From positions 1 through 64,000 of the forward strand of contig CALSME010000002.1 in assembly GCA_943787375.1 (NCBI GenBank): a DNA stretch of 64,000 nucleotides, given 5' to 3'. Source of the stretch: an uncultured Polaribacter sp. Its GTDB lineage: Bacteria > Bacteroidota > Bacteroidia > Flavobacteriales > Flavobacteriaceae. Shown in pieces: positions 4,671 to 26,899 of this stretch. The position numbers and the translations under genes are program-made. Each line of letters opens with the position of its first letter. Position 1 is the stretch's first letter. The notes below the pieces were generated by a model that did no database searches, was not told the origin of the DNA, and saw only the letters and a list, made by a program, of their open reading frames with translations.

Positions 4671-4718
4671 AATGGACTCATTATGGGCTAAATCTGCGTA
4701 TTGTTTTTGCTAAATTTG
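4671..4718 (+). promoter_or_regulatory. Direct-repeat promoter element A, upstream of the surface module
   Basis: ATGGACTCATTATGGGCT (4672-4689) contains two heptamers related to ATGGGCT with 11 bp from start to start, one helical turn. TAAATTTG, a match to TAnnTTTG, follows 21 bp later (4711-4718). Related elements stand at 10651 and 11516 in the same orientation. The layout suggests an activator site or an alternative -35 element. The start codon at 4725 is so close to the -7 box that the transcript would be nearly leaderless if the box is used. Confidence 0.5.
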
Positions 4719-4724
4719 TTATTT

Positions 4725-5231
4725 ATGATATACCCCAAAAAGCTACGGTTTTTTTTGCATTATTTACTATTCGCTATTCTGTGTTTATCCAATAATGATA
4801 TTTCAGGACAGTTACATCATCAAATGCTATCTTCTCAAGGGGGGCTAAATACTACCCAAAGCGGTATCATTGTTTCTCAAACGATTGGACAAACTTCTGT
4901 GACTGGTAATTATTCAAGCACGAACTCCAAGATAGGACAAGGCTTTCAGCAACCAACAAAGGGAAAATTGTTAATAAAAGGTCTTAATCCAGCTATTTCA
5001 AGCACAATCTATCCCAACCCTTTTGAAAATCAAATAACGATAAGCTATAGTTTACAGGAACTCGTATCCATAACAGTATTTGATATGGCAGGGAAACTTA
5101 TTTATAAAAACAAACTTTCTTTTGAGTTAGGCGACAGGTCTATTGATGTTTCTAATTTAAAATCAGGTGTTTATCTAATTCAATTACAATCAAAATCAAA
5201 TACTTCTTATTCTAAAATCGTAAAACGATGA
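4725..5231 (+). CDS. Secreted protein with T9SS type A sorting domain
   Basis: A 168-residue exported protein. The ATG at 4725 gives a normal signal peptide (MIYPKKLRFFLHYLLF to about DISGQ); an upstream TTG only adds hydrophobic residues. The middle part (HQMLSSQGGLNTTQSG, then VSQTIGQTSVTGNY) is a small Gly/Ser/Thr-rich segment. The C-terminus is a classic T9SS type A sorting domain: YPNPFENQITISY, then GKLIYK, GVYLIQLQ and a basic end. This domain directs export across the outer membrane and is normally cleaved. Its stop overlaps the next gene by 4 bp (ATGA), so the two are coupled, with the collagen-like gene third. No catalytic motif is seen; a structural or anchoring role is inference. 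Confidence 0.85.
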   Translation: MIYPKKLRFFLHYLLFAILCLSNNDISGQLHHQMLSSQGGLNTTQSGIIVSQTIGQTSVTGNYSSTNSKIGQGFQQPTKGKLLIKGLNPAISSTIYPNPFENQITISYSLQELVSITVFDMAGKLIYKNKLSFELGDRSIDVSNLKSGVYLIQLQSKSNTSYSKIVKR

Positions 5232-5863
5232 AATACAGCATCACTTTTTTATTACTCTTAGGAGTAACTTATTCATTAAGCGCCCAAGATGTTTATTTTA
5301 GTATTGGAAGAAACTTCACAACGTATGATTACGTTGATTCATCAGGAGCGTCTAATTCGAACATTAAAGGAGGTACAGGTAGTTCTTATGAAATAGGAGT
5401 TCTCTTAAAACCTTACGATAATATTGGAGTTGCTTTGGGAGTTACCTTAAATGAATTCAATGCTACTGGAGGGACATTAGTTGATAACTATATCTGGGAT
5501 ACTAATTATTTAGGACTTCAGGGAGTTCTTAAATACAAATTAATAGGAGGCAGTGGAAAGTGGTCTAACCGAAATGAAGGTTTTTCAATGTATCTTAATG
5601 CTGGTGTTAATTTTAACAGTTTAATACACGGTCAACAAAAAATAAATGGTCAAACTTTTGATTTGACACAGAGTAGTGAGTTTAATGGTTTCTTTATGCA
5701 ACCTCTTGTTGGCTTTGATTTGAGCTATTCAATAACAGACAGTATTTCTTTTGGCTTAGGGTACCATTTCTCAAAAAACTTTAGGGCCTCTACTAGTGGA
5801 GATGAAACCCTAAAAATAAATAACAGTCAACTTCAGTTTAACGTATTAATGTCTTTATACTAG
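5228..5863 (+). CDS. Outer-membrane beta-barrel protein (porin-like) of the collagen module
   Basis: 211 residues with signal peptide [20 protein letters not shown]. The mature part is a series of alternating-residue strands separated by short turns ([30 protein letters not shown]) and ends in a strand with a terminal aromatic, [10 protein letters not shown], typical of small 8- to 10-stranded barrels assembled by BamA. It overlaps the upstream T9SS-tagged gene and lies one base before the collagen-like gene, so the three are almost certainly one operon. It could anchor or help assemble the collagen-like protein, which lacks a sorting domain; that is inference. Confidence 0.8.
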
Positions 5864-5864
5864 T

Positions 5865-8864
5865 ATGAAAAAGTATTTATTAATTTTCTTATTTATTTCG
5901 AGTTACACATTTTCACAAAGCAATGGTATTACCTACCAAGCTGTGATATACAATCCAAGAGGAGAACAATTACCAGGCGCAAACAATCCATATTCACTGA
6001 TTACAAACCAACAAGTTTGTATCCAATTTGGAATCGTTGATGCAAATGGCTCCTTGGAATATCAAGAAAATGTTCAAGTAGTTACAGATGGTTTTGGAAT
6101 GGTAAACGTGCTCATAGGCGCTTATACACAAACAGCTGGTTATGCAACTGGATTCAATAATGTGAATTGGGGTCCAGAGGCCAAGTTTTTAAAAGTAGAC
6201 ATCGCTATCAAGGGCGAATGTGCGGAGTTTGAGGAACTTTCCTATCAACCATTTACGTACGTTCCCTTTGCATATTATTCACCTGCATCAGACATACCTG
6301 GTCCACAAGGTATTCAAGGTGAGGTTGGTCCACAAGGAGCCACAGGTGCAACGGGTGCTCAAGGTATTCAAGGAGAAGTAGGTCCACAAGGAGCCACAGG
6401 CGCAACGGGTGCTCAAGGTATTCAAGGAGAAGTAGGTCCACAAGGACCAGCAGGTACTAACGGAACGAATGGTTCAGATGGCGCAACAGGTGCAACCGGT
6501 CCACAAGGAGCCACAGGAGCCCAAGGTATCCAAGGAGAAATAGGCCCACTAGGAGCAACAGGCGCAACGGGTGCTCAAGGTATTCAAGGCGAGGTTGGTC
6601 CGCAAGGAGTCACAGGCGCAACGGGTGCTCAGGGTATTCAAGGTGAAGTAGGTACCCAAGGTATCCAAGGAGCCACAGGTACTCAAGGAGCTCAAGGTGA
6701 AGTAGGACCTCAAGGAGAAACTGGTGCAACGGGTGCTCAAGGCGAAGTCGGTCCACAAGGACAGACAGGCGCAACAGGCGCTCAAGGTATTCAAGGAGAA
6801 GTAGGCCCGCAAGGACTAGCTGGAACTAACGGAACGAATGGTTCAGATGGAGCCACAGGCGCAACAGGAGCTCAAGGTATTCAAGGAGAAGTAGGTCCGC
6901 AAGGACTAGCAGGAACTAACGGAACGAATGGTTCAGATGGAGCCACAGGCGCAACGGGTGCTCAGGGTGTTCAAGGAGAGGTTGGTCCCCAAGGAGCCAC
7001 TGGAACTACAGGAGCTCAAGGCATCCAAGGAGAAATAGGCCCACTAGGAGCCACAGGCGCTACAGGTGCTCAAGGTATTCAAGGAGAAGTAGGTCCGCAA
7101 GGAGCCACAGGTGCAACGGGTGCTCAGGGTATTCAAGGAGAGGTTGGTCCGCAAGGAGCCACAGGTGCAACAGGGATTCAAGGTGAAGTAGGACCTCAAG
7201 GAGAAACTGGTGCAACGGGTGCTCAAGGTATTCAAGGTGACGTAGGTCCCCAAGGAGAAACTGGTGCTCAAGGCATCCAAGGCGAAGTAGGCCCTCAAGG
7301 AGCAACAGGTGCAACGGGTGCTCAGGGTATTCAAGGTGAAGTAGGACCTCAAGGAGAAACTGGTGCAACGGGTGCTCAAGGTATTCAAGGTGACGTAGGT
7401 CCCCAAGGAGAAACTGGTGCTCAAGGCATCCAAGGCGAAGTAGGCCCTCAAGGAGCAACAGGTGCAACGGGTGCTCAGGGTATTCAAGGAGAGGTTGGTT
7501 CTCAAGGAGCCACAGGTGCAACGGGTACCCAAGGTATTCAAGGCGAGGTTGGCTTTCAAGGAGCCACAGGCGCAACAGGTGCTCAAGGACCAGCAGGAAC
7601 TAACGGAACGAATGGAGCAGATGGAGCCACAGGTGCAACAGGTCCTCAAGGGAGTACTGGATTAACCGGTCCACAAGGTTCTCCTGGAATTAATGGAGAA
7701 AATGGACAAGACGGTATTAATGGATTATCTGCTTATGAAATATGGATTTCACTTGGAAATACAGGAACCGAACAAGAATTTATTGATTCTTTAGTCGGAC
7801 CTGCCAGTTCTGGAGGTAATTCAGGTTCAGCTAATTTTACTAATGGAATACCATCAAGTATTGATGAATATACTTCTTGTAATGATGAGGATTCTTGTAA
7901 TCTTTTAATTCAAGATGGTTGGGTTCCATTTGGAGGAATTTCAATTGATGAATCTAGAGCTGGAACAGGAGGAAATACTTATAGTTATGGTGTTAGACAA
8001 GCTATGATAAAATATGAAAATTCTCCAACTATCGATGCCTACAGGATAGCAGTATCAATTCAAGAAGTTACAGATGATATAGCAGATGGATTTATACCCT
8101 ATGGAGGTGTATCATATACAGAATCGAGAGCAGGTACTGGTGGTCGTAATTTTTCAAAGAAAGAGTATCAAGCAATGATATTATTAAGTTCTGAGAATGA
8201 AAACACTAATGATTCTTCTTCTTCTTCAGATTCAATTGTAGCTGAACATATTTCACCAATCGAAGATTATAACTGGGATATTCCTGGATGGGAATTTGAT
8301 GCAATGGGCGAAGGTACAAGTTTAATAAAAAGTAGAATTACAAATAATTCAATTACATTCTATCCTATTTTTGTTTCAAAACAAACAGATTATTCTGCAC
8401 TAGGATTTTTTAGAGGTAGTTCGTCAAATAATACTAGCAATGTAAATAATATAGATATTAGAATAGGAATATTTTCTTTTTCTAACGGTAAGCCAGGTGA
8501 ATTGGTGAAAGAGTTTGATTTGATAAATTATTCAACATTACCTAGGTTTTTTGAAGTTGAAACATTTTTTTCTTTAAATGCAGGTAATTATTTTGTTGGT
8601 GTCACTAGTGAGACACAAGGTTTACAATCTTATTCTGATTTTTATAATGTAGTCAGAAATGCTAATGAGGGTCAAACTTTTGGAATTTCACCAAATGGGA
8701 CCTTATCAAAAATGAGTGTTGTTAATGGAAGTTCATATTTAGAAACAGGGGATTCATATATTTATTCGAAAAATTCATCCCAAGTTGGTTTTGGAAATAT
8801 AGATTCCGCTAACTTTATTCAAATGACTAATAGCGGATTCATTTTTTTTAAACAAGTATTATAA
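5865..8864 (+). CDS. Collagen-like repeat surface protein
   Basis: 999 residues. A signal peptide (to about SYTFSQS) precedes an N-terminal domain ([19 protein letters not shown] to about residue 142) that I recognise from many Bacteroidetes tail-fibre-like and collagen-like surface proteins. Residues 146-622 are about 159 unbroken Gly-X-Y triplets dominated by [12 protein letters not shown] and GEV, expected to form a collagen triple helix and thus a trimer. The helix ends in [18 protein letters not shown], a motif often found after bacterial collagen repeats. Two similar DGWxPFGG-type units (about residues 670-770, DUF1737-like) and a beta-rich C-terminal domain follow. No T9SS sorting domain is visible. 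Likely a stalked adhesin or fibre. Confidence 0.88.
7176..7481 (+). repeat. Perfect 153-bp tandem duplication inside the collagen region
   Basis: Bases 7176-7328 and 7329-7481 are identical as far as I can read, and the first 8 bases of the unit recur at 7482. The unit is 51 codons, exactly 17 Gly-X-Y triplets, so gain or loss keeps the frame. Identity at synonymous sites shows a recent duplication. Confidence 0.92.
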
Positions 8865-8954
8865 AATCATCTTATAATACAGAAAGGTAGGGGTTTTCTT
8901 TTACTGATTAATCTCAATTTGAAACTCTGTTGACATTTGATTGATGCTTAACAA

Positions 8955-9292
8955 CTAAACCATAGGCATATCCTCTTCTTTTAATTCAGGGAGTTCTAAA
9001 CCTCTTAAATAGGTTAAACTTACATTTATAGAGAATGTCCCATCGCTTTCTTTAGCTTGGTTATAGAGCCTGTACGCTTAAAGATTTCTATAACACCAGC
9101 GTGTCTAAAAGAGTAGAGTGTTTGTCCTTGTTCAAGTGTGCTTGATTGTCTCTTAAAACATGTCCAAAGGGTTTTAAAGTAATCTTAGTTTAAAGGTTTA
9201 TGTTTTCCAGAAAAGATATTATGATGCCCTTCTCCTTTTACAAATAGTTTTCTAATGTGTGTTGGAACTGGAACGATGCTATTCCTAGCTTT
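8955..9292 (-). pseudogene. Remnant of a tyrosine recombinase (phage-type integrase)
   Basis: Minus-strand translation gives the C-terminal catalytic half of a Bacteroidetes tyrosine recombinase: RNSIVPVPTHIRKLF, then LYSFRHAGVIEIFKR (box II Arg/His), KKAMGHS, then NVSLTYLRGLELPELKEED with the nucleophilic Tyr in TYLRG. It is broken three ways: an in-frame stop at 9185-9187, a one-base loss near 9025-9036 that shifts frame between GHS and NVSLTY, and no N-terminal half, since the sequence upstream of 9292 belongs to the DUF6090 gene. The frame ends at a stop at 8955-8957. It cannot encode an active enzyme and marks past integration. Confidence 0.82.
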
Positions 9293-9965
9293 TAACCCTA
9301 TCAGATAGCTCGTTATCTATGAGTGCAATTAGTAGCAAAAAATCTTCTCTTAGTTCTGGTCCTTCTTTAATTATTGATTCTAACCACAATTGCATATCAT
9401 AAATTTTATTTCTAAATGGAGTTGATAGAATTAGGTCTACGCACTTTTTTTTCTCTGTATCATTTCTTGGGTTATAAACATAATGTTCTGTTAAATAATA
9501 CCCCATATTCACACATACTAATTCTGTGCGTTTTTCTTCCTCTGTATAATCTTCAATTAAAAAAGGCATACGAGAAACTAATTTTTTAATAGCATCATTT
9601 TTTATCAACTCAATATAACCAGAACTAATTAGCGAATTTGTAGCCCCCAGATTCGGATTAAATGACCAATTTAAAGTTAAAATATTAAGAATAGAGTCCA
9701 TTTCCTTAAAGCTATCTTTATTTGAGAATTTATAGAATCTATCCAGATTTTCCCAACGTGGTTTGTGATAACTAAAAGACTCATCAAAGCCTTCTAAATT
9801 ACTAACATACTCTTCTTTGAGACTTCTCAAATACTTAATTTCTAAAGCTTCATCTCGCTTCGTTTCTTTCCAATTATTAATAATAAAAGAAAGTGAAATT
9901 CCCAAAAAAATAACGAGAAACTCCAGAGTGTATTTAAAAACGTATTTTTTTGTTTTTTTATTCAT
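9285..9965 (-). CDS. DUF6090 family membrane-anchored protein
   Basis: 226 residues with one N-terminal membrane helix (YTLEFLVIFLGISLSFIINN, about 12-31) followed by NWKE and a long helical soluble domain, the layout of the DUF6090 family common in Flavobacteriia. The soluble part contains the family-like segment GATNSLISSGYIELIKND. Function is unknown. The last few codons run into the integrase remnant, so the native C-terminus may have been altered by the rearrangement that truncated that gene. It stands alone in opposite orientation to its neighbours. Confidence 0.75.
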   Translation of the reverse strand: MNKKTKKYVFKYTLEFLVIFLGISLSFIINNWKETKRDEALEIKYLRSLKEEYVSNLEGFDESFSYHKPRWENLDRFYKFSNKDSFKEMDSILNILTLNWSFNPNLGATNSLISSGYIELIKNDAIKKLVSRMPFLIEDYTEEEKRTELVCVNMGYYLTEHYVYNPRNDTEKKKCVDLILSTPFRNKIYDMQLWLESIIKEGPELREDFLLLIALIDNELSDRVKS

Positions 9966-10158
9966 CGATTGAATTTACTTTCAAATATAATCAAATACTA
10001 ACAACTGAAATTGAAGTATACAAGATGTTTCATAAAACGGCTCCAAACACTCATAAATCAGTCTTATTATTAGGGCGCGATAAAACTTAAGGGACTGAAT
10101 ATTTGTTATTTGCGAAAATTATTATTAAATTTAAATCTTCTAACCAAAAAAGAATACC

Positions 10159-10386
10159 ATGGATGAAAACAAAGCAATGTCAGTTGGTGATTGGATAATC
10201 ACAATGATCGTTACAGCAATTCCTCTTGTAGGATTTATTATGCTATTTGTTTGGGCATTTAGCTCAGGCACAAACTTAAGTAAAAAAAATTGGGCCAAAG
10301 CAGCGCTCATATTTTACGCAATTATTATCGTATTATATTTCTTGTTTTTCGCTGCCATTATGGGAGCAATGGCATCGGGATATTAA
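10159..10386 (+). CDS. Small two-helix membrane protein
   Basis: 75 residues from an ATG at 10159 with two hydrophobic segments (about 10-32 and 46-70) separated by SSGTNLSKKNWAKA. This matches a family of small Bacteroidetes inner-membrane proteins of unknown function. It is followed by a strong terminator, so it is a single-gene unit inside the accessory island. Confidence 0.75.
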   Translation: MDENKAMSVGDWIITMIVTAIPLVGFIMLFVWAFSSGTNLSKKNWAKAALIFYAIIIVLYFLFFAAIMGAMASGY

Positions 10387-10410
10387 GTTTTCAATACGCA
10401 TTCCTAAAGA

Positions 10411-10438
10411 AACCCTCTATGTTGAGGGTTTTTTTTAT
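10411..10438 (+). terminator. Intrinsic terminator after the small membrane protein gene
   Basis: AACCCTC (10411-10417) and GAGGGTT (10424-10430) form a perfect 7-bp stem with a 6-nt loop, followed by TTTTTT. Confidence 0.85.
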
Positions 10439-10649
10439 GTCAATAGAAACCCATTAGTAAAAGCTAAATAACACTTAGACCTCCCTTCGTCTGTTAAGGA
10501 AACACCTAAACACTTGAATACGTTAGCAGAAGTACATTTGTAACAAATATCCCACACCTTCCTTTCATTTGAATAGAGAACGCTTTCTTTTAAAGGTTAA
10601 AAACGAAGCTGTCTGCAACAGCAGTCTTCATTTCAAAATGAATTAAAAT
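10435..10649 (-). other. Spacer with a 53-codon start-less open stretch on the minus strand
   Basis: Between 10435 and 10596 the minus strand is open for 53 codons and rich in Cys (segments WDICYKCTSANVFKCLG and SKCYLAFTNGF), but it has no start codon and follows a stop directly. It may be the tail of a lost gene. I do not recognise it, and no other gene is visible in the spacer. Confidence 0.25.
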
Positions 10650-10697
10650 AATGGGCTAATTATGGGCTTTATTGCTCAAGGGTGATTTCTATCTTTG
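10650..10697 (+). promoter_or_regulatory. Direct-repeat promoter element B
   Basis: ATGGGCTAATTATGGGCT (10651-10668) has two perfect ATGGGCT heptamers, 11 bp apart start to start. TATCTTTG (10690-10697), a match to TAnnTTTG, begins 21 bp after it, the same distance as in element A. The small ORF at 10714 follows 16 bp later. Confidence 0.55.
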
Positions 10698-10713
10698 AGC
10701 TTTTAAATAAAAC

Positions 10714-10836
10714 ATGGAAAAATTAAAAGAAAATACGCGTTTAGAAAAAGAGGATCCTAAAATTCTTATTGAAAAAGAAAAAGGGGAAGTACGATTTAAA
10801 ATTGTTGAAAACATGAAGTGTTTCAAGGAAAATTAA
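10714..10836 (+). CDS. Very small charged ORF (40 residues)
   Basis: ATG at 10714 opens 40 codons reading MEKLKENTRLEKEDPKILIE and continuing to CFKEN, ending TAA. It is Lys/Glu-rich with no membrane segment and no family I recognise. Support for a real gene is positional: element B with a good -7 box lies just upstream and a strong terminator just downstream, so a short transcript is likely. It may instead be a small RNA. Confidence 0.45.
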   Translation: MEKLKENTRLEKEDPKILIEKEKGEVRFKIVENMKCFKEN

Positions 10837-10853
10837 CACCCCCTATGAAACAA

Positions 10854-10881
10854 AAAACCGCTTTTTATGAGCGGTTTTTTT
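10854..10881 (+). terminator. Intrinsic terminator after the 40-residue ORF
   Basis: AACCGCT (10856-10862) and AGCGGTT (10870-10876) form a perfect stem with a 7-nt loop, followed by a T run. Confidence 0.85.
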
Positions 10882-11093
10882 ATGGTTGCTATTGAATCTA
10901 CAAACTTTTCTTTTACCAATAACATCTTCACCTGAACTTTGCAATTACATGCTAATTGAAAAAAAATGCTTATTTTGATATACGTAACAAAGCAATATTG
11001 AATCGCGCACACTTAAAAAGAACCAGATAGGGTTTACATATAAATTCTAACAGGATTTAATGTTGTATCTTAGAAAAATAAAACAAGAAACAC

Positions 11094-11261
11094 ATGAAAT
11101 TTATCAACACTTGGTATCCAGTTATTTTAGCATTTGGGTGTTTACTATATTCTGTAACCTACGGAATATTGGGAATGTACGAAGAGGCACAATACTCAGC
11201 ACATTGGCCAGGCACTATTTTATTATTTGCAATTGCAATTAGACAACGAAGAAAAACATAA
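11094..11261 (+). CDS. Small hydrophobic protein (55 residues)
   Basis: ATG at 11094 reads MKFINTWYPVILAFGCLLYS and continues to FAIAIRQRRKT. There are two hydrophobic stretches (about 8-27 and 39-48) and a positively charged C-terminus, as for a small inner-membrane protein with the tail in the cytoplasm. Its TAA overlaps the next ATG (TAATG), so the two are translationally coupled. TATCTTAG upstream at about 11066 could be a weak -7 box. No family is recognised. Confidence 0.55.
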   Translation: MKFINTWYPVILAFGCLLYSVTYGILGMYEEAQYSAHWPGTILLFAIAIRQRRKT

Positions 11262-11410
11262 TGGGAATTCAATTTTTCATAGTGGGTGGTGTTATTTTTG
11301 CAACATATATGGGATTAACTATATGGAACATCATCTACTCTAACAGAAAGCAAAAGGAAGAAAACTATCCATCAACACAAAGTGACGTTGATAAGAAGGG
11401 ACTTAAATAA
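11261..11410 (+). CDS. Small single-pass membrane protein (49 residues)
   Basis: The ATG at 11261 overlaps the preceding stop codon. The product has one strong membrane helix (IQFFIVGGVIFATYMGLTIW) followed by a short hydrophilic tail rich in Lys, Glu and Asp. A terminator follows 27 bp downstream. With its neighbour it forms a two-gene unit of tiny membrane proteins; function unknown. Confidence 0.5.
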   Translation: MGIQFFIVGGVIFATYMGLTIWNIIYSNRKQKEENYPSTQSDVDKKGLK

Positions 11411-11436
11411 CGATTTAAAGAAAACGATTACACTTC

Positions 11437-11466
11437 AACCTCATCCTACAGATGAGGTTTTTTTAT
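11437..11466 (+). terminator. Intrinsic terminator (first copy of a duplicated hairpin)
   Basis: AACCTCATC (11437-11445) and GATGAGGTT (11451-11459) with loop CTACA, then a T run. The same hairpin with the same loop and CTTC flank recurs at 12511. Confidence 0.88.
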
Positions 11467-11514
11467 GCAATGAAAAAGAGACGGTATACATTCCTTTATA
11501 CCACACATAATAAA

Positions 11515-11557
11515 CATGGGCTAGTTATGGGCAAATACTTAAATTCTTATATCTTAA
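11515..11557 (+). promoter_or_regulatory. Direct-repeat promoter element C, upstream of the lipoprotein gene
   Basis: ATGGGCTAGTTATGGGCA (11516-11533) repeats the 18-bp pattern of element B with two differences. The following TATATCTTAA is only a weak -7 candidate. The lipoprotein start lies 54 bp after the element. Confidence 0.45.
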
Positions 11558-11586
11558 ATTAGTTGCTAATTTAAATTAATGTTAAA

Positions 11587-12486
11587 ATGAGAAAAATACT
11601 AAGTACAAGTCTTTTATTTGCTTTTATCTTTTTAATTGGATGTAAAGACAAGAAAAAACAAGTAACTGTAAAAACATTAGATGCGAAAATTTTAATGGAT
11701 GCATCTTCTGAGAGATTTAAGAAATATTGGGGTATGGGCGACGCAACTGCTATTTCAGAAGAATTTACAGCAGAGGCAACCAGAGTTATTTCGAATCCTG
11801 CGAGTCCAATAGAAGGAAAACAAAAAATTAAAAACGCATTTACAGCAACATTTTCAGAAGGTAGTGAACTCAAGGGAAGTAACATCAACATCTCCCTTTT
11901 AGAAACTCGATTGGTTTCAGAAGATATCTTGTTAGGTGCTGGAACTTTTGAGATCATAGATGCAAACAAAAATATTCTTGAAAGTGGTAAATGGGGAAAC
12001 GTATATAAAGTATCGGAAGGAAAAATTAAATTTTTACTAGAATCTGCACATCGAAAGATTGACCCAGCAAAAATGGTTGGAAAAGCACCTACAGCACTTA
12101 AAAATTCGATTGCTTCAGAAGCGCTTCATTTCGAAAAAATACAAGCGAGCGTTTCCAATTATATAAAATTTGCAAATGAAGGGAATTCAGATCAATTAGC
12201 AATGCTATTCGCTGAAGACGGAATTCAAAGCGTAAGCTCAAAAGAAGGAGTGGTAATGGGGCGTGAAAAAATTAAGGCAACCGAAGCATATGCAGAAGGT
12301 CAAGTTTTAAACGCCAACATTTTAGGATATAAATATCTTGGGAATTCATTGGCCGTAGGGTATGGTAACTGGAATCAACTTGATGAAAAATCAAATACAA
12401 TGGTTTTTGGGCAATGGGGGAATCTATTTAAAATAGAGGGAGACACTGCCTACTTATTAATGGAATCTGCAGGGCGCATAGAATAA
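11587..12486 (+). CDS. Lipoprotein with two SnoaL/DUF4440-like (NTF2-fold) domains
   Basis: 299 residues with a lipoprotein signal, lipobox LIGC (Cys19), then a Lys-rich linker. Two similar halves follow (about 35-160 and 170-299), each with the NTF2-like pattern of an N-terminal helix, a DATAISEEFTAEA or NSDQLAMLFAEDG segment, a G-x-E/R-KIK turn and C-terminal strands (WGNVYKVSEGKIKFLLESA versus WGNLFKIEGDTAYLLMESA). This indicates an internal duplication. Homologues are annotated as ketosteroid-isomerase-like or SnoaL-like; ligand and function are unknown. It has its own terminator and element C upstream. Confidence 0.78.
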   Translation: MRKILSTSLLFAFIFLIGCKDKKKQVTVKTLDAKILMDASSERFKKYWGMGDATAISEEFTAEATRVISNPASPIEGKQKIKNAFTATFSEGSELKGSNINISLLETRLVSEDILLGAGTFEIIDANKNILESGKWGNVYKVSEGKIKFLLESAHRKIDPAKMVGKAPTALKNSIASEALHFEKIQASVSNYIKFANEGNSDQLAMLFAEDGIQSVSSKEGVVMGREKIKATEAYAEGQVLNANILGYKYLGNSLAVGYGNWNQLDEKSNTMVFGQWGNLFKIEGDTAYLLMESAGRIE

Positions 12487-24023: not shown

Positions 24024-26765
24024 ATGGACAAATTTTCGTTCTTAAACGCAGCGCACACTGGCTTTATCGCCGACTTATACGATCAATATCTACAAAATCC
24101 AGACGCGGTGGAACCGAGTTGGAGAAGTTTTTTTCAGGGCTATGATTTGGCCAACGAAAACTACTCCCTTAAAGACAGCGAGGAGGAAACGGTTTCTAGT
24201 GAGATCCCGGAAGAAGTAAAAAAAGAATTCTTAGTCGTAGACTTAATCAACGGATATCGATCTCGTGGGCACCTGTTTACAAAAACAAATCCAGTAAGAG
24301 AAAGAAGACAATACCAACCTACTCTAGAAATAGAAAACTTTGGTTTATCGGACAATGATTTAGACACAGAATTTTCTGCAGGATCAATTTTAGGTTTAGG
24401 GAAAACCAAACTAGCAACCATTATACAGCATTTAAAAAGTATTTACTGCGACTCTATTGGAGTAGAATATACGTACATGCGGAATCCAGAAAAATTAAAG
24501 TGGTGGCAAGATCGTTTGAATAAAAACGACAATCATCCTGATTATTCTGTGGATGCAAAAAAATACATCCTTTCAAAATTAAATCACGCCGTAACTTTCG
24601 AAAACTTTTTACAAACAAAATATGTGGGTCAAAAACGTTTTTCGCTAGAGGGTGGAGAAACTTTAATACCAGGTATTAGCGTTGCATTAAGAGATGCATC
24701 TGAAAAATTTGGTGTAGAAGAATGTGTTTTAGGAATGGCACACAGAGGGCGTTTAAACACCTTAGTAAATATCTTTAAAAAACCCGTTCGTGAATTGTTT
24801 AGCGAATTTGAAGGAAAAGATTTTGAAGATCAAAACATTGATGGTGATGTAAAATATCACTTAGGATTAACTCTCAGTAAAACCTATAGAGACGGAAAAC
24901 AAATCAAGATGAATTTGGTTCCAAATCCATCGCATTTAGAAACCGTAGCTGCGGTTGCTGAAGGAATTACCAGAGCAAAAATAGATCGAAAATACAACGG
25001 AGATTCGAGTAAAATACTCCCTATAATTATTCATGGAGATGCTGCAATTGCTGGGCAAGGAATTGCCTATGAAATTACACAAATGTCCAAATTAAATGGG
25101 TATAAAACAGGGGGAACCATTCATATTGTAGTTAACAATCAAGTTGGTTTTACCACCAACTATTTAGATGCTCGTTCAAGCACCTATTGTACAGATGTTG
25201 CCAAAGTAACGCTCTCTCCAGTATTGCATGTAAATGCAGATGATGCAGAAGCGGTTTGCCATGCAATGGAAATGGCCTTGGAATTTCGAATGAAGTTTAA
25301 AACCGATGTTTTTATTGATCTTTTAGGATACAGAAAATACGGTCACAACGAAGGAGATGAGCCTCGTTTTACACAACCAAAACTATACAAAGCGATTGCA
25401 AAGCACCAGAATCCAAGAGATCTTTATGCTGCACAATTGCTTCAAGAAGGCACAATTAACAGTACTTATTTAGATGAAATAACGGCTGAGTTTAAAAATA
25501 TGCTTTCAGCAGAATTCGATAAATCGAAAGAAGACAGCTCCTCGAAAGTAAAAGAGTTTATGCAATCTACCTGGAAAGGATATGCGCGTAAGCAATTAAA
25601 ATCAATGCTAGAAATTGTCGACACAACTTACGGAGTCGAGAAATTAAAGCACATTGCAAAAGTAGTTTCTACGGTTCCTGAAAAAGTGCAATTTGTTCGA
25701 AAAGCAGAACGTATTTTACAGGGAAGAGCAAAAATGACTTTTGAAACCAATACCTTAGACTGGGGAATGGCAGAAAATCTTGCCTACGGAAGTTTAATGG
25801 AAGAAGGTTTTAATGTTCGTATTTCAGGACAAGATGTAGAAAGAGGAACGTTTTCTCACCGACATGCAATTTTGCGTGATGAAATTACCGAAGAAAGAAT
25901 CAATTTATTAAACACAAATCCTAAGAGCAAAGGACAAATGACGATTTACAACTCGTTGTTATCTGAATACGGCGTTTTAGGATTTGACTATGGGTATGCA
26001 ATGGCAAACCCAGATACACTCACAATTTGGGAAGCACAATTTGGAGATTTCTCCAATGGCGCTCAAATTATGTTTGACCAGTACATTTCTGCTGCTGAAG
26101 ACAAATGGAAATTACAAAACGGAATTGTTGTTTTACTTCCTCACGGATATGAAGGACAGGGTTCTGAACATTCTTCTGCAAGAATAGAACGGTATCTACA
26201 ATTGTGTGCAATAGACAATATGACGGTTGCAAACTGTACAACGCCAGCAAACTTTTATCATTTGCTGCGAAGACAAATGAAACGCGATTATAGAAAACCC
26301 TTAATTGTTTTCACGCCTAAGAGTTTATTACGTCACCCAAAAGCAGTGAATACTATTGAAGAATTGGCTACTGGTGAATTCCAGGAAGTAATTGATGATA
26401 CCATTAACCCAGAGAAAGTAACAAAAGTGGTCTTTTGTATGGGAAAATTCTACTACGATTTATTGGCAGAGCGTGAAATTTTAGAGCGAGAAGATATTGC
26501 TTTGGTAAGAATAGAACAACTCTTTCCGCTCCATTTAGAAAAGTTACAGAAAGCCATCGATCGATATCCAAACGCAAAAGACTATGTTTGGGCACAAGAG
26601 GAACCTAGAAATATGGGTGCATGGAGTTTTATGTTAGAACGTTTTGATCTTGTAAGATTGAATGTTTGTTCTCGTAAATACTATGCAGTACCGGCAGCGG
26701 GTTCTAGTACACGATTTAAAAAACGTCATAAAGCCGTTATTGATAGTGTTTTTAGTAATGACTAA
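24024..26765 (+). CDS. sucA: 2-oxoglutarate dehydrogenase E1 component
   Basis: Thiamine-diphosphate-dependent decarboxylase of the TCA cycle; 913 residues from the ATG at 24024 (MDKFSFLNAAHTGFIADLYD), which matches family N-termini. The upstream 39-codon extension is rejected because it covers the promoter. Motifs: EPSWRSFFQGY near the start, GMAHRGRLNTLVN, IHGDAAIAGQGIAYE for the ThDP/Mg site, and the transketolase-like C-terminal half with LPHGYEGQGSEHSSARIER. The E2 gene odhB follows after 153 bp; E3 is elsewhere. Confidence 0.97.
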   Translation: MDKFSFLNAAHTGFIADLYDQYLQNPDAVEPSWRSFFQGYDLANENYSLKDSEEETVSSEIPEEVKKEFLVVDLINGYRSRGHLFTKTNPVRERRQYQPTLEIENFGLSDNDLDTEFSAGSILGLGKTKLATIIQHLKSIYCDSIGVEYTYMRNPEKLKWWQDRLNKNDNHPDYSVDAKKYILSKLNHAVTFENFLQTKYVGQKRFSLEGGETLIPGISVALRDASEKFGVEECVLGMAHRGRLNTLVNIFKKPVRELFSEFEGKDFEDQNIDGDVKYHLGLTLSKTYRDGKQIKMNLVPNPSHLETVAAVAEGITRAKIDRKYNGDSSKILPIIIHGDAAIAGQGIAYEITQMSKLNGYKTGGTIHIVVNNQVGFTTNYLDARSSTYCTDVAKVTLSPVLHVNADDAEAVCHAMEMALEFRMKFKTDVFIDLLGYRKYGHNEGDEPRFTQPKLYKAIAKHQNPRDLYAAQLLQEGTINSTYLDEITAEFKNMLSAEFDKSKEDSSSKVKEFMQSTWKGYARKQLKSMLEIVDTTYGVEKLKHIAKVVSTVPEKVQFVRKAERILQGRAKMTFETNTLDWGMAENLAYGSLMEEGFNVRISGQDVERGTFSHRHAILRDEITEERINLLNTNPKSKGQMTIYNSLLSEYGVLGFDYGYAMANPDTLTIWEAQFGDFSNGAQIMFDQYISAAEDKWKLQNGIVVLLPHGYEGQGSEHSSARIERYLQLCAIDNMTVANCTTPANFYHLLRRQMKRDYRKPLIVFTPKSLLRHPKAVNTIEELATGEFQEVIDDTINPEKVTKVVFCMGKFYYDLLAEREILEREDIALVRIEQLFPLHLEKLQKAIDRYPNAKDYVWAQEEPRNMGAWSFMLERFDLVRLNVCSRKYYAVPAAGSSTRFKKRHKAVIDSVFSND

Positions 26766-26790
26766 GTGCGTTAAGGATTGAAACAGCATC

Positions 26791-26899
26791 CTTTTTAATT
26801 TTGACTGTGAAGGAAAAAATTAAAAAGATATCGTGGAAAGCCTGTGAAAACGCCCAAAATATAAAAAGTAAAATAATTAAATGCTGATACATGTTCAGC
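26791..26899 (+). repeat. Inverted repeats in the sucA-odhB spacer
   Basis: A perfect 12-bp inverted repeat, CTTTTTAATTTT (26791-26802) with AAAATTAAAAAG (26816-26827), and a second short one, GCTGA and TCAGC (26883-26899), just before odhB. The first is too AT-rich and lacks a T tail for a classic terminator. They could be an mRNA processing hairpin and an operator; low certainty. Confidence 0.35.

Follow-up and report, generated by a model that had tools for sequence, protein, structure and literature searches.

The regulators closest to the system described here belong to three groups. The RRNPP(A) regulators of Firmicutes and their phages (PlcR, PrgX, NprR, Rap, ComR, and AimR) join an N-terminal helix-turn-helix (HTH) to a C-terminal tetratricopeptide repeat (TPR) superhelix, and their sites are often palindromes. 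Boxes of OmpR/PhoB-type response regulators, such as the Pho box, are 7-bp direct repeats with a 4-bp spacer beside the −10/−7 element. MalT, a LuxR-family activator, combines a TPR-like sensor (domain III) with an ATPase domain and a C-terminal LuxR-type HTH. Here we analyzed a 64-kb stretch of DNA from an uncultured Polaribacter sp. (the window; contig CALSME010000002.1 of assembly GCA_943787375.1, positions 1 to 64,000), in which a tandem heptamer recurs just upstream of gene starts. Judged by sequence comparison, the heptamer pair (consensus WTGGGCT-RNTT-WTGGGCT) is a conserved promoter part, and we consider it probable that it is the operator of an HTH-TPR regulator that activates its targets and, from that very site, also represses its own gene in many relatives. 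To our knowledge, few Bacteroidota transcription factors outside polysaccharide utilization systems have a known operator. For this family, which has no Pfam or NCBIfam name, a candidate regulator, an operator code (half-site approximately RNYNCAW in an 11-bp tandem), a promoter geometry, and putative targets emerge together.

The window's own genome (G000; 2.12 Mb, 79% complete) is one of a set in which we denote genomes by G and loci by L numbers; expectation values for sites come from R1, a sequence-only profile built from 27 sites and including the columns of the promoter box. The window holds three elements, all on the plus strand: operator A (ATGGACT-CATT-ATGGGCT, ATGGACTCATTATGGGCT) at 4672 to 4689 (E = 2.0e-6), operator B (ATGGGCT-AATT-ATGGGCT, ATGGGCTAATTATGGGCT) at 10651 to 10668 (E = 6.4e-6), and operator C (ATGGGCT-AGTT-ATGGGCA, ATGGGCTAGTTATGGGCA) at 11516 to 11533 (E = 5.1e-8). 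A preliminary description of this DNA had reported the three copies in one orientation, each with an 11-bp step between heptamers and each close to a gene start, and all of this holds: the start codons follow at 35, 45, and 53 nt, respectively. It had also noted a TAnnTTTG box exactly 21 nt past operators A and B; these −7 boxes (TAAATTTG, 4711 to 4718; TATCTTTG, 10690 to 10697; both plus strand) are present, as is one it missed 21 nt past operator C (TAAATTAG, 11555 to 11562, plus strand), which is one letter off TAnnTTTG. It had noticed no further double copy by eye, and exact matches to ATGGRCTNNNTATGGGCW in the 64 kb are operators A, B, and C only, all on the plus strand. With up to three mismatches the window yields five matches compared to a mean of 3.13 in shuffled sequence, and 19 of 100 shuffles reach five; because this is not above chance, proof must come from outside the window.

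Such evidence begins with the rest of the genome. Across the G000 assembly, the pattern ATGGGCTNNTTATGGGCT matched 24 times at up to three mismatches, compared to 7 for the reversed pattern, and 6 times compared to 0 at up to two mismatches. The element is not limited to the island in which the three copies had been described, and the putative regulon extends well outside it: other copies lie at C2:348248, C2:519617, C2:553255, C6:57514, and C8:18591-, and a weaker copy adjoins the regulator gene (see below) in C5. A TAnnTT box lies 20 to 21 nt past five of the six sites found at up to two mismatches, a count that does not depend on the box having been used in the search; the C2:519617 copy has no clear box. 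Site C6:57514 (L019) was left out of this test because it was chosen, from 18 three-mismatch matches, after its box had been seen.

Within the genus, a search of 116 genomes with a 47-letter pattern returned 15 matches, which fall in 6 of the genomes (3 matches for the reversed pattern). R1, searched in 112 genus genomes, returned 25 sites at E < 1e-3, all within seven genomes (eight sites in G000, seven in G023, three in G125, two each in G116, G085, and G019, and one in G030), and two of these, G125 and G030, had contributed nothing to the training set. Weaker matches are widespread (E ≤ 0.3 in 108 of 112 genomes), and we treated those above 1e-3 as noise unless they were next to a gene for the regulator or for an orthologous target. 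All but 1 of the 25 sites lie outside any open reading frame (ORF) of ≥100 aa; the exception, L038, lies both in a reverse-strand ORF of ∼114 codons and in the stretch by which its target ORF extends upstream. The sigma-A box of flavobacteria, TAnnTTTG, sits at −12 to −5 according to PMC9723704, and a TAnnTT box follows 22 of the 25 sites at 20 to 21 nt, although this count is not independent since R1 holds the box columns. Two of these 22 boxes read TAnnTTGY, the SM5 box of Flavobacterium psychrophilum (PMC9723704); they accompany the same operator at L040 and L042, which precede neighboring genes in G023 (C1:1496009 and C1:1497057).

Among the Polaribacter genomes compared, orthologous genes retain the core of the site while spacer and flanks vary. 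A WecA-like glycosyltransferase gene (Pfam Glycos_transf_4 in the G125 copy) keeps it in four genomes (G023, G116, G125, and G085), and a 117-aa ORF keeps it in five (G000, G023, G125, G019, and G085); the G085 sites at both genes are weak (R1 E 0.005 to 0.007). The WecA-like gene is the first of an exopolysaccharide cluster: in G023 it precedes a NusG/UpxY-like gene as well as Wza-like and sugar genes (the last two judged by eye). Three further targets keep the site in two genomes each: a zinc-ribbon-like ORF (G000 and G019), an ABC-F gene (G000 and G023), and a secreted ORF of 43 to 44 aa (L006 at C2:553255 of G000, and L127 in C5 of G030). The last begins with a signal-peptide-like stretch, ends in a short basic tail, and is possibly a signal peptide or another small secreted factor. 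Since the G000 assembly is 79% complete, the list of its regulon is incomplete.

The likely reader of the element is a predicted DNA-binding protein of ∼430 aa, whose gene in the window's genome lies outside the window (G000:C5:277190-278470). When named genomes were scanned with the exact pattern and its box, 18 loci emerged, 8 of which contain this gene: in 7 it is divergent, starting 1 to 116 bp from the site, and in L048 it lies within the same 8 kb. The linked proteins measure 426 to 437 aa, apart from those of L050 and L063, which are cut off by the end of the contig or locus; L047, L050, and L060 are close relatives (∼80% identical), and some of our counts include such relatives. L063 is labeled as uncultured Rhodobacteraceae, but its site, spacer, and adjoining gene starts match Flavobacteriaceae genome G405 where compared; perhaps its contig is misbinned. 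Seven other loci (L049, L051, L056, L058, L059, L061, and L062) are cyanobacterial, Paenibacillus, or gammaproteobacterial, five of them inside coding ORFs and a sixth within a repeat array, and were taken as chance matches.

Regulator and element are also inherited together. Of 112 genus genomes, 8 have a match to a regulator profile, A2, at E < 1e-130 (next best, 1e-45), the sets of 112 genomes in the motif and regulator surveys being taken as identical. These eight include all seven motif genomes, whereas 1 of 105 others has the regulator (Fisher p = 2.2e-10, with motif and regulator cutoffs set after the lists had been seen and with shared ancestry inflating the test). In that eighth genome, G124, whose own protein is part of profile A2, the regulator gene directly adjoins a weaker site (R1 E 0.005). 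The physical linkage seen in other genera does not depend on the Fisher test. A site of 14 to 22 bits starts ≤100 bp upstream of seven of the eight Polaribacter regulator genes. The preliminary description had suggested that co-occurrence would reveal the regulator and had named LytTR and extracytoplasmic function (ECF) sigma factors as candidates; a co-inherited protein was found, but it differs from both suggested types, families that were not themselves searched. An EamA-like permease gene lies downstream of the regulator in all eight Polaribacter loci (judged by eye, with Pfam support for the G000 copy) and neighbors it in 5 of 18 further loci (L046, L057, L250, L252, and L262). In L246 (G085), a GATA microsatellite of ∼15 copies stands just beyond the regulator operator; it was not seen in the six other upstream stretches compared.

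The regulator matched no Pfam (six proteins) or NCBIfam family beyond subthreshold noise, and nothing in PHROGs or PADLOC (four proteins each) or in PDB sequences and plasmid and phage records (one protein each). Its predicted model is all-helical (predicted local distance difference test score [pLDDT] 83.8; predicted template modeling score [pTM] 0.73), with a predicted lambda-repressor/XRE-like HTH at the N terminus and a TPR-like superhelix at the C terminus. For the N-terminal 100 residues, the eight VIA-align entries listed are all repressor- or antitoxin-type HTH proteins, with weak scores (Z 5.0 to 3.2), while Pfam identified no HTH in the six proteins. The C-terminal part is best matched by MalT domain III (1hz4; Z 16.4 over 275 residues, root mean square deviation [rmsd] 4.2); Z scores to RRNPP-type TPR proteins were 12.7 for NprR, 12.5 for Rap, 12.1 for PlcR (whole length, rmsd 9.6), 11.1 for AimR, and 11.0 for ComR, in a range (up to ∼13 to 14) that may be background for helical models. 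Foldseek gave no C-terminal match at E ≤ 0.001. Unlike MalT, the regulator carries its predicted HTH at the N terminus, and no ATPase was found by Pfam.

Diverged relatives of the protein in other Bacteroidia families appear to carry their own tandem repeats of 11-bp period, with other letters and often the same geometry. The family was detected in at least 23 of 396 Bacteroidia genomes, including G000, at E ≤ 1e-12 with up to four candidates scored per genome; many of the matches cover the N-terminal part only. Repeats before the start codons of relatives include TTAGTACAAGT, present twice (five close copies, one with one or two letters changed), TAGGTACATTT, ATTTGGCTCAT, CACTTGATACA, TTTGATACAWA, AAATGATACAT, and GTTCCATAAKT. 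A repeat of 11-bp period (≥9 of 11 identities) occurs within 60 bp upstream of 17 of 35 genes, whereas every other period from 6 to 22 occurs in 0 to 4 of the 35; 12 of the 17 are among 27 genes found by protein similarity alone, and 5 are among 8 motif-found loci. Operators of relatives may often be readable from the 60 bp before their genes. RNYNCAW summarizes the half-sites as read on the regulator strand (C in 64 of 64, A in 56, and W in 56). Mapped onto a tree of 33 proteins, the operator types call for 10 changes, compared to 17.2 when shuffled (a difference to which near-copies contribute), and 15 GGGCT members plus 2 without an operator fall on one side of a 100/99 branch. The short-domain relatives from other Bacteroidia families (L272 to L283, L286, and L287), whose matches cover mainly the N-terminal 85 to 215 positions of the profile in ORFs of 137 to 854 aa, and the partial L285 have no clear 11-bp upstream repeat, with L276 read at the wrong gene; they were left out of the counts of period, own box, and divergent box. 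The two box counts, of 32 and 16 loci, respectively, rest on loci with a marked tandem site, a feature absent from three of the 35 (L242, L268, and L271).

Promoter geometry in these relatives has two parts. For 21 of 32 regulator genes, the gene's own TAnnTT box begins 6 to 8 nt ahead of the first half-site (background, 6.7%). On the divergent side of non-GGGCT operators, TAnnTT[TG] lies at 20 to 22 nt in 10 of 16 loci (background, 4.3%; p = 1e-10, or ∼9e-5 after near-copies are collapsed, an approximate value for which n = 12 was used while grouping gives 11 groups, 5 of them positive). Because the 16 loci were found by protein similarity, the divergent-box test is independent of how the window sites were discovered.

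From the observed sites, their spacing and conservation, and the linkage and co-inheritance of the gene, we infer that the regulator binds the element, activates its targets, represses itself in many relatives, and senses a ligand. Two protomers would probably sit side by side on one face of the DNA, one turn apart. With the box at −12 to −5, the operator at targets would occupy approximately −51 to −34 (center near −42), 20 to 21 nt upstream of the sigma-A −7 box, the position of a class II activator, and from there the regulator may recruit RNA polymerase. In many relatives, the −7 box of the regulator gene itself is immediately followed by the operator, which would cover the start site; such placement points to probable self-repression while the divergent target is activated. 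The TPR part is probably a sensor for a small ligand. If so, this would be a signaling system of a kind not found in our literature searches for marine Bacteroidota. As far as listings and abstract openings show, these searches yielded no recognized description of a regulator of this kind, and the motif searched for as letters gave unrelated matches only. Repeats of the heptamer TAACTGA, described as possible posttranscriptional sites that for the most part immediately precede start codons (PMC4679880), have other letters and were judged unrelated.

The predicted domain plan resembles that of the RRNPP(A) regulators, and it is tempting to see the family as their Gram-negative counterpart: one-protein HTH-TPR receptors across Bacteroidia, each with a tandem operator of its own, that switch exopolysaccharide and collagen-like surface fibers in response to a small secreted peptide or metabolite, with the operator-driven 43-aa secreted ORF or the EamA permease in the signal route. 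We regard this proposal as speculative and rather doubtful. The present family occurs in Bacteroidota instead of Firmicutes; its operators are tandem direct repeats; and its usual Polaribacter neighbor is an EamA-type permease, according to a survey of eight loci that listed neighbors of ≥60 aa, whereas the secreted ORF of 43 to 44 aa (L006 and L127) lies elsewhere. Because TPR folds are common and the peptide gene and ligand are conjectural, we have not filed the family under RRNPP. RRNPP receptors were sought in Firmicutes and viruses in a 2023 survey (PMC10075063).

Several observations weigh against activation through an HTH-TPR regulator, in addition to the reservations stated above for the Fisher test and for G124. 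Three genomes without the regulator (G018, G021, and G086) each have one R1 match just above the cutoff (E 0.0012 to 0.0022), and G138, which lay outside the regulator survey, has one site. In G116, which has the regulator and two sites, nothing beside the regulator gene scores above 13 bits. No TAnnTT box was found at 20 to 22 nt past L005, L036, and L126, and the divergent box is absent at 6 of the 16 loci with other operators, whose half-sites and register, like those of the relatives in general, were placed by eye. The pattern occurs without a regulator in the locus at L052, L053, and L055; L052 belongs to G023, which has the regulator elsewhere in its genome, and neither L055, which is coding, nor L053, a triple repeat, was used as evidence. 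In the clade of G000, 87 to 89 bp separate the operator from the regulator start downstream of it; the geometry of autorepression is thus not kept there, and self-control may differ. Structural support for the HTH is weak (best Z 5.0): Foldseek gave 12 matches for the N-terminal part, all at E > 2 (best, 2.2) and, after the first, mostly to unrelated folds, and some eukaryotic TPR proteins score like those of RRNPP type. Lastly, a family-wide scan of 395 genomes found 3 nonself matches, compared to 17 for the reversed pattern. Outside carrier genomes the pattern is therefore at chance, which makes the element patchy rather than general, and the scan, falling below its reversed control, carries no weight as evidence.

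The alternative that best survives keeps the same regulator but has it mainly repress its targets, or change sign with ligand. A lambda-repressor-like HTH, as predicted, would suit a repressor, as would an operator that reaches into the start region of the regulator's own gene (21 of 32 cases). At targets, however, the site lies mostly upstream of the −7 box at 20 to 22 nt (22 of 25; 10 of 16 for other operators), as contact by an activator requires, and we consider this alternative unlikely. We regard it as very unlikely that an OmpR/PhoB-type response regulator binds the element, even though the one-turn spacing and the place beside the −7 box are those of such boxes. Pfam matched neither a receiver nor a winged-helix domain in the linked protein (six proteins), and the heptamers of relatives differ; proteins with PF00486 number two in each of the seven motif genomes and two to four in seven compared genomes, none being motif specific by counts, with orthology not worked out. 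Moreover, binding by a response regulator would leave the adjoining, co-inherited HTH-TPR gene unexplained. Riemerella belongs to the same order as Polaribacter. The core of its PhoP site is TTTAACA, according to PMC9603813. Response regulators surveyed by PF00486 and PF00072 were set aside as candidates, none being special to the motif genomes as judged by counts and lengths only; a NarL-type response regulator is apparently cut short in G023 (172 aa, compared to 221 in G000).

The preliminary description had left open an activator dimer site or an alternative sigma −35 region. The first is supported by the 20- to 21-nt spacing, by conservation at orthologues, and by the adjoining co-inherited regulator, while the second is not favored because a −7 box of sigma-A type is kept (22 of 25 sites). 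The second heptamer would end near −34, where a −35 element could lie, and mixed sigma use is possible at the two G023 promoters with TAnnTTGY, the SM5 box (PMC9723704). Two heptamers that are nearly identical and set one turn apart point to a pair of proteins, though, and relatives retain the geometry with different heptamers; we regard an alternative sigma factor as even less probable than a response regulator. Least credible of all are recombinase attachment sites or mobile repeats, which an integrase-like gene (judged by eye) beside the triple repeat of L053 might recall but which are largely contradicted by orthologous promoters, in which the core persists despite changes in flanks and spacer, and by the regular distance to the promoter box.

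Under control by an HTH-TPR activator, the three operators of the window would place a collagen module, a 40-residue ORF, and an NTF2-like lipoprotein in one regulon, as had been proposed; their common sites support this. Operon A, on the plus strand as are the other genes named here, begins with a small secreted protein sorted by the type IX secretion system (T9SS) (4725 to 5231; 168 aa from the first ATG past the operator; Pfam Por_Secre_tail E 2e-17, with the query from 4728). It continues with a 211-aa protein that is perhaps an outer membrane beta-barrel (5228 to 5863; OMP_b-brl E 3e-4, below cutoff) and a 999-aa collagen-repeat surface protein (5865 to 8864; Pfam Collagen E 5e-75). Downstream of operator B, the list of open reading frames has the 40-residue ORF (10714 to 10836), which matched no Pfam or NCBIfam family. 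Operator C precedes a 299-aa NTF2/SnoaL-like protein (11587 to 12486; SnoaL in Pfam and TIGR02246, both below cutoff), whose lipoprotein-like start was judged by eye.

Targets of the operon A type seem to travel with regulators. In L054, a GGGCT operator is followed by a T9SS-sorted small protein (Por_Secre_tail E 2e-8) and a collagen-stalk protein (Collagen E 3e-50), and L048 has part of an operon A counterpart after its GGGCT operator, its second gene showing N-terminal similarity (E 1e-9) and no collagen match. In L284, a small protein (Por_Secre_tail E 2e-10) and a collagen protein (E 9e-17) are divergent from a regulator and operator of the GATACA type. A relative of the 117-aa ORF (29% identity, E 8e-16) is likewise divergent from a GGCTCA-type regulator in G085. 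The putative targets span an exopolysaccharide cluster, a collagen-like surface operon, lipoproteins, and small secreted proteins, and in other bacteria of marine and fresh waters, family members appear to adjoin genes for exopolysaccharide and for collagen-like surface proteins.

A few observations stand apart from these. In L053 (Bacteroidetes ZE-Jul18-35), three GGGCT repeats in 11-bp steps precede the integrase-like gene. At L265, L269, L293, and L044, with operators of several types, a recurrent divergent target carries the motif FTKY...LQGxKGVVR...NQWG (recognized by eye); one of two such proteins tested has a weak TerB match in Pfam. Within the window, a Flavo-1 small RNA motif lies at 26750 to 26851 on the plus strand (Rfam RF01705, 45.1 bits).

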